From: Azotobacter vinelandii CA
GTDB lineage: Bacteria > Pseudomonadota > Gammaproteobacteria > Pseudomonadales > Pseudomonadaceae
Length of the DNA stretch: 64,000 bases
Direction: 5' to 3'
Assembly: GCF_000380335.1 (NCBI RefSeq)
Contig: NC_021149.1
Coordinates: forward strand, 1-64,000
The position numbers and the translations under genes are program-made. Shown piece after piece: positions 44,213-51,365 of the stretch; within the stretch, counting starts at the first letter, position 1, and every line of letters begins with the position of its first letter. The notes under the pieces were generated by a model. That model was not told where the DNA came from, did no database searches, and saw only the letters and a program-made list of their open reading frames with translations.

Positions 44213-44779
44213 TCAAGGCCGCAGCAGGCAGGCCAGCGGCAGGCTGTGCAGGCGCCGACGCAGGTAGACGCGCAGCGCCGCTTCGTCCTCCCGGCGATGG
44301 CGCAGCCAGTGGGCGAAGGTGCACAGATAGACGGCGCTGAGCGCGCATTCCTCGCCGATGCGCGCAAGCCAGGCGTCGCTCCGTCCGGCCGCCTCGCGCC
44401 ACCACTGCACCGTGCGGCTGATGCGCATCAGCCCCTGCGCCTGCAGGTGGATATGGCCGGGTTCGAGCTTGTAGCACAGCATCTCCCCGGTCAGGGCCCG
44501 GTGCGGGGCCAGCGCGGCGAACCAGGCCACCAGCAGTTCCTCCAACCGGCCGGCGGGCGTCATCGCCGCCAAGTCGGCGTCCCGGGCCCGGGCGAGCAGG
44601 GCGGCGTCGGCCCGGTCGAACCAAGCCTCCACCAGGGCATCCTTGTCCCGGTAGTGGCGGGCGATCTCGTCCAGCCCGATATCCAGCGTGGCGGCCACGT
44701 CGAACAGGCGCAGACGTTCCCAGCCGCTGCGCTCGGCGATCTGCAGGGCGGTATCGAGAATCTGCGCGGCACTCGTCAT
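44213..44779 (-). CDS. TetR family transcriptional regulator
   Basis: A 188-aa protein from ATG 44779, with GGAGG 7 bp upstream. The N-terminal helix-turn-helix (about 20-48, ERLRLFDVAATLDIGLDEIARHYRDKDAL) matches TetR regulators. The C-terminal ligand domain is not recognised and has no sequence cue to its ligand. It lies divergent from the binding-protein/GTPase/ABC operon across a 310-bp gap that holds a 24-bp palindrome, so it is likely the local regulator of that operon. Confidence 0.85.
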   Translation of the reverse strand: MTSAAQILDTALQIAERSGWERLRLFDVAATLDIGLDEIARHYRDKDALVEAWFDRADAALLARARDADLAAMTPAGRLEELLVAWFAALAPHRALTGEMLCYKLEPGHIHLQAQGLMRISRTVQWWREAAGRSDAWLARIGEECALSAVYLCTFAHWLRHRREDEAALRVYLRRRLHSLPLACLLRP

Positions 44780-44981
44780 GAACTCACCTCCGTCTTCCAG
44801 TATGGCCGCTTCCGCAACGGCCGGCGGTGGCGGCGACCGGTGGCGGAGCGCGCTTGGGCAGAGCCGCAGGCATGCCTTGCGGCTCGCACGGTCCAGTGTT
44901 CCGGTCCGTACATTCGGATACCGATGATGTTCGTTCCGGAATCCACTCCCCGCCGAAGGCCGGCCATTACCTGATCGCGTT

Positions 44982-45005
44982 CGAACAAAAATGGTTTTAT
45001 GTTCG
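44982..45005. promoter_or_regulatory. Palindromic operator candidate for the TetR regulator
   Basis: A 24-bp inverted repeat: left half CGAACAAAAATG, right half GTTTTATGTTCG; arms CGAACA/TGTTCG match perfectly, with AAA/TTT inside, 18 of 24 positions symmetric. It sits between the divergent TetR gene and the binding-protein gene, 85 bp before the latter's ATG. The AT-rich centre stands out from the local GC. Operator function is inferred. Confidence 0.5.
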
Positions 45006-45089
45006 CAAAGGTCCGCTCCAGAGCGCTGCGAGCGGGTGGCATCGGGGTTGCACTGTCCGTTCGGCAACAGCCGGTGATGATCGATACCC

Positions 45090-46118
45090 ATGATGAAATC
45101 AGTCTCTTGCCCGCGTTTCGGTCTGTTTTTGCTGCTGGGGTTGTCCCTGGCCACGGCCCAGGCGCGTCAGCTTACCGATATGAGCGGCCGTACCGAGGAG
45201 ATTCCCGAGCGGCCGCAGCGGGTGTTCCCCGCTGTGACCATGATGACGCCGGTGATGGCCGCCCTGGCGCCGGAACTGATGACCGGGCTGGCGTTTCGCC
45301 TGGCTCCGGGCGCCGAGGCCTTCCTGCCGGCCGGGGTGGCCGGGTTGCCCGTGGTTCCGGTGCTGGAGGACATGAACGCCGAGGCCATCCTGGTCATGCG
45401 TCCGGACCTGGCGATCGGCTGGAGCGGCGCCGGTCCCCTGATGCGGCGCACCGAGACGCTGATGCAGCGTCTGCGGATTCCGGCGCTGTTCTACAAGGGC
45501 GAACGCCTCGACGAATACCCGGCGACTTTCCGGGCGCTGGGCGATGCTCTGGGACGGAAGGTGCGCGGCGAGCGACTGGCGCGCTATCTGGAGGACAGCC
45601 AGGTCCGTTTGCGGCAGGCCCTGCGGGATCTGCCGGAAAGCGAACGGCCACGGGTCTACTACGCCGAAAGTCCCGACGGCCTGACCACCCAATGCGACAG
45701 CACCAGCCGCATGGAGGTGATCCGCCTGGCCGGTGGCGTTCCGGCGCTGTCCTGCGCCGACAAGGGGTTCGCCACCAGCAGGGAGGTCGATTTCGAAACC
45801 CTGCTGGAATTGGACCCGGACGTCGTCGTGGCGCGCAATCCGGACAGCGCGGCCCGGCTGCGCGGCGAGCCGCGCTGGCAACTGCTGCGAGCCGTGCGCG
45901 AGGGAAGGGTCTACGGGATTCCCGAACTGCCCTTCAACTGGTTCGACCGGCCGCCCTCCTTCATGCGCGCGCTGGGCGCGCACTGGCTGGCGCGCCTGCT
46001 GCACCCGCGGCGCTTCGACGAGGATATCCGCAGCGAAGCCGTGCGCTTCAACCAGGTGTTCTTCGGCATCGAACCGCCAGCCGCCGCGCTCGATCGACTG
46101 CTGGAGCCGCGCTCATGA
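45090..46118 (+). CDS. Periplasmic metal/cobalamin/siderophore-type binding protein (PF01497-like)
   Basis: A 342-aa exported protein. The signal peptide ends AQA (about residue 25) and is followed by RQLTDMSGRTEEIPERPQRV, the typical N-terminus of class III binding proteins (BtuF, FecB, TroA-like). Later VLEDMNAEAILVMRPDLAIGW and LLELDPDVVVARNP give the helix backbone. The ligand is unknown; no TonB receptor or permease lies nearby. ATG 45090 and 45093 are both possible. Its stop overlaps the next gene (ATGA), and it is the first of four coupled genes. Confidence 0.8.
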   Translation: MMKSVSCPRFGLFLLLGLSLATAQARQLTDMSGRTEEIPERPQRVFPAVTMMTPVMAALAPELMTGLAFRLAPGAEAFLPAGVAGLPVVPVLEDMNAEAILVMRPDLAIGWSGAGPLMRRTETLMQRLRIPALFYKGERLDEYPATFRALGDALGRKVRGERLARYLEDSQVRLRQALRDLPESERPRVYYAESPDGLTTQCDSTSRMEVIRLAGGVPALSCADKGFATSREVDFETLLELDPDVVVARNPDSAARLRGEPRWQLLRAVREGRVYGIPELPFNWFDRPPSFMRALGAHWLARLLHPRRFDEDIRSEAVRFNQVFFGIEPPAAALDRLLEPRS

Positions 46119-47116
46119 TGCTGGCCGAGCAGGTGATCGACGCCGAGGAGCCGGTCTTTCCCGAGGAGGAGTGGGGAGCGACCCGGCGGCTGGACTTCTA
46201 TGGCCAGAACATCCCGCCGCTGGCGCGCGCGATGCGCCGTCTGCTGGCGGAGCATTTCCGTCGCCGGCAGCTGCAGCCGGCCTGGTACGTCACCGGGCCC
46301 TTCGGCAACGAACCCTACCGACAGTTCAGCGAGGTCGAAGACGCCGACGACCTGCCGGCGCTGATCGCCGATGCCGGTCCGCGCGCCTTCGGCCGTCCGG
46401 CCTTCGCCGAGCGCTGGGCCGGGGTCTACGCAGCGCGCCGCCAGGCCGGGCGGCGCGCGGAGTTCGTGCAGGCCGGCCTGTACGATCCGGCCGATATCTT
46501 CCAGACCCACGGCTGTTCCTGCTGGCTGATCCTGGCCGACGAGCAGGAACTGGCCGGACGCCCGCTGCCGACGGCCTGGTGCGATCTGTTCGCGCCCCGC
46601 TACGAGCGCAGCATAGTGCTCAACGGAGATGGCGACCTGCCGGCCCGCCTGTTGCTGGCCAATCTGGCGCACGACCACGGCGCCGCCGCCATGACCGCGC
46701 TGGGCCGCAACACCCGGGCGATCCGCAGCGGCGGCGAGATGGGCCGGGCGGCCGGCAGCCACAGTCCGGAGCGGGCCGCCCTCTACGTGCTGCCCTGGTT
46801 CTGGGCGCGCAACAACATCCACACCCAGCGTACCCGCATCCTCTGGCCGCGCGACGGCGCCTATGTCACGCCACTGGTTTCGCTGGGCCGCCGCGAGCTG
46901 TCGCCCGGCGCGCAGGCCGCGCTCGATTTCCTCGGCGGGCCGCTCTGGGCGGCGACCATGGAAAGCGTGGATTGCGTCGTGGCCGATCCGCGCCATGCCC
47001 GTGCGCCGCTGCCCGGCCCGTTGCGCTGGACTGGCTGGGAGCCGGTTCGCAGCGCCGCCTTGGATGATCTGGTCGCCTCCGCGGCCGCCCATTTCCGTCA
47101 GGGATTCCATGCATGA
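46115..47116 (+). CDS. Periplasmic-binding-protein-like protein without signal peptide
   Basis: A 333-aa protein from ATG 46115 (MMLAEQVIDAEEPVFPEEEW). The middle LPTAWCDLFAPRYERSIVLNGDGDLPARLLLANLAHDHG resembles the PTSWADLxxPxYKGxI region of FbpA-type class II binding proteins, and LYVLPWFWARN... YVTPLVSLGRRELSPGAQAALDFLGG resembles their second lobe. Yet there is no signal peptide, so it probably acts in the cytoplasm. Cys residues C134, C136, C156 could bind metal. It overlaps both neighbours by 4 bp (ATGA), so all four genes are coupled. Function unknown. Confidence 0.65.
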   Translation: MMLAEQVIDAEEPVFPEEEWGATRRLDFYGQNIPPLARAMRRLLAEHFRRRQLQPAWYVTGPFGNEPYRQFSEVEDADDLPALIADAGPRAFGRPAFAERWAGVYAARRQAGRRAEFVQAGLYDPADIFQTHGCSCWLILADEQELAGRPLPTAWCDLFAPRYERSIVLNGDGDLPARLLLANLAHDHGAAAMTALGRNTRAIRSGGEMGRAAGSHSPERAALYVLPWFWARNNIHTQRTRILWPRDGAYVTPLVSLGRRELSPGAQAALDFLGGPLWAATMESVDCVVADPRHARAPLPGPLRWTGWEPVRSAALDDLVASAAAHFRQGFHA

Positions 47117-47835
47117 AACTCATCACCCTCGCCGGACCGCCGTCGTCCGGCAAGACCTCCATCGCCATCCGCACCCTGCAACTGCTGCGCGAGGAGGGCC
47201 TGCGCGCCGGCGTGGTCAAGTTCGACTGCCTGACCGGCCGCGACGGCGAGCGCTACCGGGCCGCCGGACTGCCGGTGCTGAGCGGCATCTCGGGCAATGC
47301 CTGCCCGGACCATTTTTTCGTCAGCAATATCGTGGATTGCGCCGCCTGGGGCCACGAGCAGGGGCTCGATCTGCTGCTCAGCGAGTCGGCGGGGCTGTGC
47401 AACCGCTGCGCGCCGCATATCCGCGGCCTGTACGCGGTCTGCGTGCTGGACAACCTGGCCGGGGTCGATACGCCGTTCAAGATCGGGCCGATGCTGAAGA
47501 CCGCCGATCTGGTGGTCATCACCAAGGCCGATATCGTCAGCCAGGCCGAGCGCGAGGTGTTCGCCCACCGGGTGCGGCAGGTCAACCGCAAGGCGCGCAT
47601 CCTGTTCGCCAACGGCATCACCGGACAGGGCGCCTGGGAGATCGGCCAGCTCTGGCGCGACGCCGCGGAGGACGACGAACTGACGGGCGGGCGGCTGCGC
47701 TTCTCGTTGCCTTCGGCGGTCTGCTCCTATTGTTTCGGACAGACCAAGATCGGCCACGAATTCCAGCGCGGCGTGGTGCGGCGCATCGAGATTCCCGGCC
47801 TCGAAACGGGTGGCGAACAGGAGCAGGCGCAATGA
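47113..47835 (+). CDS. HypB/UreG-like (SIMIBI, G3E) GTPase, metallochaperone candidate
   Basis: A 240-aa P-loop GTPase. Walker A GPPSSGKTS is at residues 8-16, VVKFD (34-38) takes the place of the HypB switch Asp, and TKAD (137-140) is the guanine motif. Between these, NACPDHF (C64, H67) echoes the metal-binding Cys-x-His of HypB/UreG, ESAGLCNRC (C96, C99) and SAVCSYCFG (C204, C207) add two CxxC pairs. Such GTPases deliver Ni or other metals to enzymes. The partner enzyme here is unknown. The gene overlaps both neighbours by 4 bp. Confidence 0.75.
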   Translation: MKLITLAGPPSSGKTSIAIRTLQLLREEGLRAGVVKFDCLTGRDGERYRAAGLPVLSGISGNACPDHFFVSNIVDCAAWGHEQGLDLLLSESAGLCNRCAPHIRGLYAVCVLDNLAGVDTPFKIGPMLKTADLVVITKADIVSQAEREVFAHRVRQVNRKARILFANGITGQGAWEIGQLWRDAAEDDELTGGRLRFSLPSAVCSYCFGQTKIGHEFQRGVVRRIEIPGLETGGEQEQAQ

Positions 47836-48815
47836 ATCCCTTGCTGGACGATCCTTCTCTCGGCGAGTTCTTCCGCCTCAACGGTCTGCCGCAACCGCAG
47901 CCCCACGTCCGGCTGGACGACTACTGGCAGGGCCTGGCCTGGCAGCAGCGGGATCTGGGGGGCTGGACCCTCGACAGCCTGGCCGATGCGCTGGTCAGTT
48001 TCATGGCGGCCCGGAACGATCCGGCCGGCTCCCCGGTACGGCTTTGCAGCCTGCAGATCCTGGCGGGGCAGGCCAAGGACGGGACACCGGAAACCCAGGA
48101 CCTGAATTTCCTGCCGGGCGATGTCGTCTGCATCGTCGGTCCCACGGGCTCCGGCAAGAGCCGCTTGCTGGCGGACATCGAGTGCCTGGCCCAGGGCGAC
48201 ACGCCATCGCGCCGGCGGGTGCTGGTCAACGGGCTGGAGCCCGATCCGGAGTGGCGTTTCTCCAGCGAGGCCCGGCTGGTGGCGCAGATCACCCAGAACA
48301 TGAACTTCGTGATGGATCTGTGCGTGGGCGATTTCCTCTGTCTGCACGCCGAGAGCCGCCGGCTCGACGATCCCCGGGCCGCCGCCGACCGGGTGCTGGC
48401 GGCGGCGGTGGACATGGCCGGCGAACCTTTCGCCGCCGGCACCCCGCTGACCCAGTTGTCCGGCGGCCAGTCGCGGGCGCTGATGATCGCCGATGCCGCC
48501 CTGCTCAGCCCCAAGCCGATCGTGCTGATCGACGAGATCGAGAACGCCGGGGTGGACCGCAACCGGGCGCTGAGACTGTTCGTCGAAAAAGGCAAGATCG
48601 TCCTGCTGTCCACCCACGATCCCCTGTTGGCGCTCTCCGGCAGTCGGCGCCTGGTGATCCGCAACGGCGCCATCGCCAAGGTCGTCGAGGCTTCGCCCGA
48701 GGACCGCCGCTACGCCGAAGAACTGGCACGCCTGGATCGCGGCATGGCCACCCTGCGCGAGGCGATCCGTCGGGGACAGGCGCCGGCCGAGGTGTGGCCC
48801 GGGTTGGGATTCTGA
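47832..48815 (+). CDS. ABC-type ATPase without a cognate permease
   Basis: A 327-aa ABC ATPase. An N-terminal region of about 95 residues of unknown fold precedes the nucleotide domain. Walker A GPTGSGKS is at 103-110, the signature LSGGQ at 209-213 and Walker B VLIDEIE about 230-237, followed by LLSTHDPLLALSG with the switch His. All motifs are intact. No membrane protein gene lies in the operon, so transport is not evident. It overlaps the GTPase stop by 4 bp and ends the operon, converging with the sulfotransferase gene. Confidence 0.8.
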   Translation: MNPLLDDPSLGEFFRLNGLPQPQPHVRLDDYWQGLAWQQRDLGGWTLDSLADALVSFMAARNDPAGSPVRLCSLQILAGQAKDGTPETQDLNFLPGDVVCIVGPTGSGKSRLLADIECLAQGDTPSRRRVLVNGLEPDPEWRFSSEARLVAQITQNMNFVMDLCVGDFLCLHAESRRLDDPRAAADRVLAAAVDMAGEPFAAGTPLTQLSGGQSRALMIADAALLSPKPIVLIDEIENAGVDRNRALRLFVEKGKIVLLSTHDPLLALSGSRRLVIRNGAIAKVVEASPEDRRYAEELARLDRGMATLREAIRRGQAPAEVWPGLGF

Positions 48816-50436: not shown

Positions 50437-51365
50437 CCGGCCCCGGCTCTTTCGGGGACTTCGGCCAGGGCAATCGCATGAAGCGCTCGCCTGATATCGG
50501 ACGGGAAAGATTGTGTGAGCCTTGGCATGGCTGCTTGCCGAGTGGCCGGACAGTCCCTGTTTCGGCCCCCCGGCCGAGTCACTTTTTCTTGCTGGCCAAG
50601 AAAAAGTAACCAAAAAGAAGGCCACCCCCTCATCCGGCCCTGCGCTTCGCTCCGGGTTCCCTCCCTACATCGCCGTTCCAGGGGCTCGCCGCGAAGGGCC
50701 ATCCATGGCCCATCGCGGCTCTCGCGGCATCCTTGCCGCTCGACCCCTTCCACGACGATTCCGTTCGGCCTCCTGAAGGGGGCATCCGGCGCGGCCTGAC
50801 AGGCCGTGCCGCAAGCGCGAAAGCGCTTTCAGGCAACTCGGAGCCCGATTCCCGTCAGGAGGCCGAGCGCAGGTGTCGCGGAGAGGGGCGAGCCGCAGGG
50901 AGGCGGCGAGAGTCGTACGAGGGGCATGGATGCCCCTTGTGCGACGACCCTCGGAGCGGCACCGGAGCGAGGGAAGTCTGGCCGCAGGCCAGACCCGGAT
51001 GTCGGGCGCGCTTTCTCTTTGGTTACTTTCTCTTTCGCGCGAGCAAAGAGAAAGTGACTCGGGCGGGGGCCCGAAACAGGGACTGTCCGGCCACTCGGCA
51101 AGCAGCCAGTGCAGCGGAGCCGAAGACCACGCCGGAACGACCAGGCACACAATCTTTCCCGTCCGGTATGGGGCGGGCATTTCATGCGATTGCCCTAGGA
51201 CTTCGGCCGAGAGCCCCGGCTGCCTGTCGGCCAAGGTTATAGCGGGTTTGTCCGCGATTGGGTCGCGTCGGGCAAAAGTGTCGCGAACAGGTTCGCGCCT
51301 GCCCGGGCGCCATCGAGCTGGTTCCTCCGGCCAGTAAGCGTGCAGGGCCCCGGAAGGGCCGATGG
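50437..51365. repeat. 929-bp non-coding region with two inverted copies of a long repeat
   Basis: No gene supported. The left copy (about 50456-50780) and the right copy (about 50840-51205) face each other. Perfect or near-perfect blocks: 15 bp (50468-50482 / 51181-51195), 19 bp (50499-50517 / 51146-51164) and 38 bp (50528-50565 / 51071-51108). Each copy contains a strong hairpin: 11-bp stem ACTTTTTCTTG at 50581-50607, and ACTTTCTCTTT at 51025-51055. These hairpin-bearing repeats occur widely in pseudomonads. It separates cysC from uvrD. Confidence 0.8.

Follow-up and report, generated by a model that had tools for sequence, protein, structure and literature searches.

What does Azotobacter vinelandii gain from an operon that combines a periplasmic binding protein, a second binding protein apparently kept in the cytoplasm, a HypB/UreG-like GTPase and an ATP-binding cassette (ABC) ATPase, and that includes no permease gene? 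The operon lies in the window, by which we mean the first 64 kb of the single 5,366,370-base A. vinelandii contig. We suggest, with moderate confidence, that it answers starvation for molybdenum and vanadium (Mo and V), joining scavenging to cytosolic handling of these metals; Mo or V for nitrogenase cofactor assembly is the most likely candidate cargo. The suggestion is built on a VnfA/sigma-54 promoter pair, published regulation, co-occurrence and linkage with the alternative-nitrogenase protein AnfG/VnfG, Mod and FecCD neighbours, an island in Pseudothauera, and the likeness of the first gene product to HI_1472. The four genes are:

45090–46118, + strand: P0001, periplasmic type III binding protein (PF01497) with a signal-like N-terminus, from profile and hydropathy
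46115–47116, + strand: P0002, SBP_bac_6 protein with a predicted FbpA/FutA fold and without signal peptide, from profile, model and fold search
47113–47835, + strand: P0003, HypB/UreG-like GTPase with seven invariant Cys/His residues, from profile and alignment
47832–48815, + strand: P0004, ABC ATPase whose motifs are intact and whose N-terminus carries a helical extension, from profile and model

The operon and its promoter

Strict coupling of the four genes, noted in an earlier sequence-only reading, was confirmed: the frames hold, with ATGA at each of the junctions. P0001 scores 58.8 bits against PF01497 (cut-off 27.5) and has a hydrophobic N-terminus (best 15-residue hydropathy 1.75), which bears out the exported binding protein proposed earlier, of the kind used by PF01497/FecCD importers. 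P0002 reaches 114 bits against PF13343 SBP_bac_6 (cut-off 24.6), and a hydropathy scan found no signal-like stretch in it (best value 0.52). P0003 (PF02492 cobW/HypB/UreG, 39.7 bits, cut-off 20.7) carries all the motifs ascribed to it, namely the P-loop GPPSSGKTS, the C64-P-D-H67 pair and two CxxC pairs, C96-N-R-C99 and C204-S-Y-C207; these six Cys/His residues, together with C110, do not vary in any of the 81 aligned GTPase rows. The ABC motifs of P0004 are likewise intact (ABC_tran, 48.2 bits, cut-off 25), but its extra N-terminus is closer to 70–90 residues than to the 95 first given, since the profile match begins at residue 90 and the modelled structure has its first strand at residue 74. 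Neither a FecCD permease nor a FecE ATPase is encoded within 45090–48815. An Rfam scan at the gathering threshold found no RNA element near the operon; elsewhere in the window, at 50682–50746 on the − strand, there is a borderline TwoAYGGAY match (43.1 bits against a gathering score of 43).

Sigma-54 sites were scored against the consensus TGGCAC-N5-TTGCA. Two elements stand upstream of P0001:

45037–45052, + strand: sigma-54 site TGGCATCGGGGTTGCA, GG-N10-GC, one mismatch to TGGCAC-N5-TTGCA
44898–44911, + strand: VnfA-type motif GTTCCGGTCCGTAC, an exact match to GT(T/A)C-N6-GTAC, the motif given in PMC9542535

The exact VnfA motif, accompanied by weaker copies with one mismatch each at 44908 and 45001, lies 139 bases ahead of the sigma-54 site, which in turn lies 53 bases ahead of the P0001 start. 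This is the sole VnfA/sigma-54 pair within 250 bases in the window, and no such pair at up to one mismatch arose in 150 simulated 64-kb sequences (mean 0.027 at up to two mismatches). A wider scan, covering 302,809 bases of selected stretches of the same genome, returned five pairs. Besides the operon's own there are one at 70961, one at 128929 preceding a ModA gene, one at 253448 in front of vnfH and one at 3190864 in front of a large frame that contains PF01497; the positions of these four appear to fit promoters treated in PMC9542535. VnfA motifs without a sigma-54 pair were found in several other scanned stretches.

The arrangement, a VnfA motif upstream of a sigma-54 promoter, is that of Class B of the VnfA1/VnfA3 regulon. 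In PMC9542535, Avin_00450 is a Class B target of VnfA1/VnfA3 that has a ChIP peak and depends on VnfA1 for its expression when Mo and V are missing, and regulation follows the absence of these two metals, not of iron. We infer that P0001 is very probably Avin_00450, because the unique promoter site fits and because locus tags run at 9.7–10.4 per kb, which places this tag at ~43–46 kb. Among open-licence papers searched by locus tag and for the GTPase together with alternative nitrogenases, PMC9542535 alone names either this operon or Avin_02430-02390, described there as VnfA1-dependent and conserved with V-nitrogenase. The system is therefore undescribed only in part: its regulation has very probably been published already, and a paralogous operon is on record.

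The divergent upstream gene had been offered as a TetR gene in front of the operon:

44213–44779, − strand: P0005, weakly TetR/COQ9-like protein of 188 aa, profile scores below cut-offs

P0005 scores 19.1 bits against PF00440 (TetR; cut-off 24) and 23.8 bits, also under the cut-off, against the COQ9 family TIGR02396. TetR control was rejected because of this weak family score and because the promoter is of the sigma-54/VnfA type; P0005 is probably not the regulator of the operon.

A conserved module and its company

A scan of the collection with P0003 yielded 113 relatives, from which 80 loci were retained, some of them ending at contig ends (52 of 80 are at least 14 kb long). The order is directly binding protein–GTPase–ABC at 63 of the 80, and 76 have one or both partners adjacent; P0002 relatives over >200 residues are present at 69 and P0004 relatives at ≥40% identity at 72. 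Not one of 57 P0002-family rows has a signal-like N-terminus (hydropathy >2.0), compared with 7 of 16 PF01497-cluster rows, in agreement with the cytoplasmic second binding protein proposed earlier. We conclude, from sequence, that P0002, P0003 and P0004 form a conserved and apparently cytoplasmic module.

A second copy of this module lies in A. vinelandii at 230.7–233.5 kb, near the vnf cluster at 246–261 kb; by position and gene content it appears to be Avin_02430-02410, and its GTPase is 59% identical to P0003. In the GTPase tree the window copy pairs with Pseudothauera (support 100/99) inside a 14-row set with Verrucomicrobia diazotrophs, one row of which (L101) is a misplaced long branch, whereas the second copy falls in another clade of nine rows, seven of them AnfG-plus. 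No window-type GTPase was found in three other genomes of the genus. An LPCP cysteine (P0002 residue 34) is present in 50 of the 57 binding-protein rows and absent from seven, namely P0002 and its counterpart in the second A. vinelandii module, the Pseudothauera row L008, rows L056, L061 and L073, and L026, which is truncated. These seven include all five rows from Proteobacteria with V-nitrogenase-type genes (P0002, the second copy, L008, L056 and L061), and a CxC at 134/136 occurs in P0002 and L008 only (2 of 57).

Some loci vary the pattern. A divergent GTPase–ABC pair (38–41% identity) stands without a binding protein beside a PF04060 Fe-S protein at L181:8572–10832 and L182:8322–10582 (− strand), and the pair may form a self-standing core unit. 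Directly behind the module ABC gene, a conserved Cys-rich protein (~80 aa) is encoded at L029:9702–9941, L057:7747–7989, L059:5330–5572 and L063:7474–7716, in Acidobacteriota and one Deferribacteraceae genome; the L059 copy has no Pfam or NCBIfam match. Two module copies, with AnfG, share one Spartobacteria UBA695 contig (L009 and L010).

Fifty carrier genomes were picked from the 80 loci for diversity rather than as a random sample. AnfG/VnfG was found in 18, PF00148 in 39 and neither in 11; the count of 18 may be low, because the contig of L056, scored AnfG-minus, bears a VnfK-like fragment. With contigs matched by length, nine of the 18 AnfG genomes have the GTPase gene on the same contig as AnfG, eight of them at gaps of 5.4–23 kb and one at 113 kb; in the other nine the two are on different contigs or unplaced. 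Five Azotobacter-family genomes have a GTPase copy 7.7–18.6 kb from AnfG/VnfG; A. vinelandii has two AnfG/VnfG genes, and there the vnf-near copy is the second one, the window copy being ~200 kb away. Six loci themselves hold nitrogenase genes (L024, L040, L046, L056, L061 and L062). On the tree both states are clustered: AnfG-plus needs 13 changes where shuffling gave 18.8 on average (2 of 500 shuffles as low), and no-nitrogenase needs 5 where it gave 10.2 (0 of 500).

Samples not chosen through the module were scored as well. Among 398 unselected Pseudomonadota, the GTPase at E ≤ 1e-40 is present in G000, G246, G095 and G129, and AnfG only in G000 and G246, so that a close GTPase and AnfG/VnfG fall in the same two genomes; in G095 and G129 the GTPase is 38% identical and stands with an ABC protein beside a PF04060 Fe-S protein, and no binding protein of the P0002 family was found there. 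Across 37 relatives, the close GTPase and AnfG are confined to the same five (G000–G003 and G013), weaker matches elsewhere being HypB/UreG-like. Within the class of the Geobacteraceae genome G061 the GTPase occurs in 45 of 146 genomes, and the seven with AnfG all fall inside the 45 (p=1.9e-4, a value that, like the other p-values here, ignores relatedness). A post hoc split of these GTPase copies at 60% identity gave NifD matches in 23/23 against 13/22 (p=5.6e-4), which is suggestive only.

The neighbours point to metal uptake at part of the loci. Counted by profile within 8 kb over the 80 loci, with names verified on representatives (TIGR01616, ModA, ModB and ModD above cut-offs), they include ModA (17 loci), ModB (17), ModE (11) and ModD (7), any Mod gene at 24; FecCD (17) and PF01497 (19), both together at 17; TonB receptors of two clusters (19 and 5); and DUF364 (9), TrmO (7) and a nitrogenase-associated protein (6). 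At least one Mod or metal-uptake neighbour is present at 38 loci and none at 42; FecCD and ModA/B stand together at six (L008, L019, L058, L069, L071 and L073). The earlier view of a coupled, metal-linked operon was supported.

Where the permease may be, and what the module may do

A 28-kb Pseudothauera contig brings Mod, scavenger, module, receptor, importer and vnf genes together. It starts with a regulator fragment 69% identical to the frame beside the A. vinelandii 4.785-Mb locus (probably VnfA3, to judge by its position), followed by VnfA motifs at 1234, 1244 and 1316 and a sigma-54 site at 1342. Then come modA (68% to the VnfA-linked A. vinelandii ModA), modB and a modC-type ABC gene (72%); the P0001 ortholog (61%), binding protein, GTPase (78%) and ABC ATPase (74%); a TonB receptor (46% to A. 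vinelandii 4784626–4786833), PF01497 and FecCD; FecE (63% to 4787693–4789735); and vnf genes (VnfD 93%, VnfH-type 90%). The A. vinelandii counterparts of these parts are scattered elsewhere in the genome, some in the same regulon, and FecCD has six matches there, five above cut-off and none in the window. Because the parts are joined in one organism and scattered in the other, the importer looks split rather than missing, and we infer that the permease for P0001 is shared or encoded elsewhere. Since FecE and a ModC-type ABC protein both accompany the P0004 homolog in Pseudothauera, P0004 is left without an obvious permease, and the module ABC looks surplus. "Permease-less" fits the operon's gene content, and for P0001 it finds an explanation in the FecCD, FecE and modABC genes that share a contig with the Pseudothauera ortholog and whose counterparts stand elsewhere in the A. 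vinelandii genome; the dedicated permease elsewhere that the sequence-only reading took as decisive against it is thereby nearly at hand.

One candidate partner, a permease operon at 2.699–2.705 Mb, was weighed and set aside: its FecE is 67% identical to that of Pseudothauera over 258 residues (366 bits), but the 4.79-Mb copy scores higher (401 bits over 379 residues), and sigma-54-like sites were found only upstream of its VnfA motif at 2698919. At 4784679 the promoter scan found a VnfA motif without a sigma-54 pair. Open frames of 1041 and 1108 aa ending in PF01497 lie at 3190972–3194097 (L149) and 4784568–4787894 (L147); the longer apparently overlaps the TonB receptor, and both are possibly fusions or an artefact of high-GC frames.

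Under the Mo/V interpretation, VnfA1/VnfA3 with sigma-54 would switch the operon on when both metals are scarce, as published for Avin_00450 (PMC9542535) and consistent with the site in the window. P0001 would be exported and would capture a metal as an oxyanion or chelate on behalf of a FecCD/FecE permease whose genes lie elsewhere; P0002, P0003 and P0004 would stay in the cytoplasm as one metal-handling unit: P0002 may hold the incoming metal species, P0003 may take the metal over through its Cys/His sites, by analogy with HypB/UreG and nickel, and P0004, having no free permease, may drive its release or transfer in the manner of a soluble ABC protein. More tentatively, we propose as a possibility that binding protein, GTPase and ABC protein are a single soluble GTP- and ATP-using machine that, in the cytoplasm, frees a scarce metal (Mo, V or other) from the ligand with which it was taken up and passes it on. 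If this is true, the machine is an undescribed metal-handling complex, kept with back-up nitrogenases and, in another clade, without any nitrogenase. The route of scarce Mo/V from uptake systems to nitrogenase assembly scaffolds is poorly known, and the gain here is two concrete operons in a well-worked organism and a module whose distribution follows that of AnfG/VnfG in two samples of Pseudomonadota and in one other class. A module working as proposed would be a general metal-delivery unit, also outside nitrogen fixers.

Several observations weigh against the Mo/V interpretation. PMC9542535 calls the operon a "putative iron ABC transporter operon". The best solved relative of P0001 is 4pag (4.3e-51), HI_1472 being far below at 6.9e-12. 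AlphaFold models of P0002 and P0004 have mean pLDDT values of 92.2 and 91.9, and the predicted P0002 structure has the ferric-binding FbpA/FutA fold, as the structure check proposed earlier now indicates (FutA1 first, E 3.2e-12, TM 0.60; KfuA TM 0.68; ~12% identity); iron, sugar-phosphate and polyamine binders match alike and do not fix the ligand, and by sequence P0002 comes closest to a pyridoxal-phosphate binder (7.4e-8). Of 50 P0004-family rows, 45 were aligned, and 9 of the 50 have a stretch above hydropathy 1.6. In the G061 class NifD matches show no association with the GTPase (36/45 carriers against 85/101 others; p=0.63), and a general link to Mo-nitrogenase was rejected on that result. 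Among the 11 carriers lacking a PF00148 protein, six have MoaA and five do not, so Mo/V for nitrogenase is not the role everywhere. MoaA (PF06463) is found in 8 and missing in 9 of 17 carriers lacking or unscored for nitrogenase, which speaks against a pure Mo role; several of these are incomplete metagenome genomes, but the 2.1-Mb Fusobacterium vincentii record (nitrogenase unscored), which lacks MoaA, is complete. A nitrogenase carrier, L019, lacks it too.

These points bear on an unlikely alternative in which the module handles iron or another metal (Fe, Ni) and its nitrogenase link reflects general metal stress. The ferric-binding fold neighbours of P0002, the carriers without nitrogenase and MoaA, and the use of nickel by HypB/UreG kin all suit it. 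The P0002 sequence matches do not clearly cover the iron-ligand tyrosine site of FbpA/FutA. The alternative is opposed by the same-genome match with AnfG/VnfG, by the Mod neighbours, and by regulation through lack of Mo and V, not iron (PMC9542535).

We regard as rather improbable that the operon is an ordinary importer with a borrowed permease, P0004 being its ATPase and P0002 a degenerate binding protein. The FecCD genes elsewhere, the complete ABC motifs of P0004 and the annotation "iron ABC transporter" (PMC9542535) would fit; however, the Pseudothauera contig already has FecE and ModC homologs beside the P0004 homolog, P0002 and its family lack a signal-like N-terminus, and the divergent GTPase–ABC pair of L181 and L182 has no permease. 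Least probable, and quite unlikely, is a sensor that sets VnfA activity as VnfZ does for VnfA3 (PMC9542535), for all that P0002, too, is a binding protein lacking a signal peptide: the role already belongs to VnfZ, the module is often present where no VnfA/nitrogenase was found (11/50), and two NTPases exceed a sensor's needs.

Likeness to known systems

P0003 shares PF02492, the P-loop and a Cys-His pair after the switch region with HypB and UreG, which hand nickel to enzymes; it differs in its extra CxxC pairs and stays below the curated models (hypB 51.7 of 121.2 bits, ureG 21 of 204.2). GTPase matches elsewhere in the genome, at 5117681 and 888686 (identity ~31–33%), appear from identity and neighbourhood to be separate HypB and UreG-like genes, and no hydrogenase or urease gene was found among those recurrent neighbours that were annotated. 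Nickel for urease or hydrogenase was rejected on these grounds; the earlier nickel hint had only family membership behind it, and the context is molybdenum/vanadium. P0004 resembles SufC/SmsC, soluble ABC ATPases of metal-cluster assembly without a permease. This is an analogy only: its fold search returned a broad range of ABC ATPases, led by CbiO and with SmsC at rank 20, transporter ATPases rank higher, and there is no SufB/SufD-like partner.

P0001 matches HI_1472, the molA product of a secondary Mo transporter (PMC3928620), which relates the operon to MolABC (HI1470-1472) and other PF01497-FecCD type II importers; PF01497 and FecCD occur together at 17 of the 80 relatives' loci, and the H. 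influenzae cluster also contains modA and modD (PMC3928620). Unlike MolABC, the window operon has no permease or FecE, and the cytoplasmic module is absent from MolABC as described there. VnfZ, a cytoplasmic binding protein acting on VnfA3 activity by metal sensing, resembles P0002 in lacking a signal peptide and in sharing the regulon (PMC9542535), but it is coupled to vnfA3 and has no GTPase or ABC partner. Avin_02430-02390, apparently the operon of the second copy, belongs to another GTPase clade, has no PF01497 gene at its head, continues into a nitroreductase and a glutamate-cysteine ligase, and is Class A, active with V too (PMC9542535); in common with the window operon it has the same three families in the same order, VnfA1 dependence and the related GTPase.

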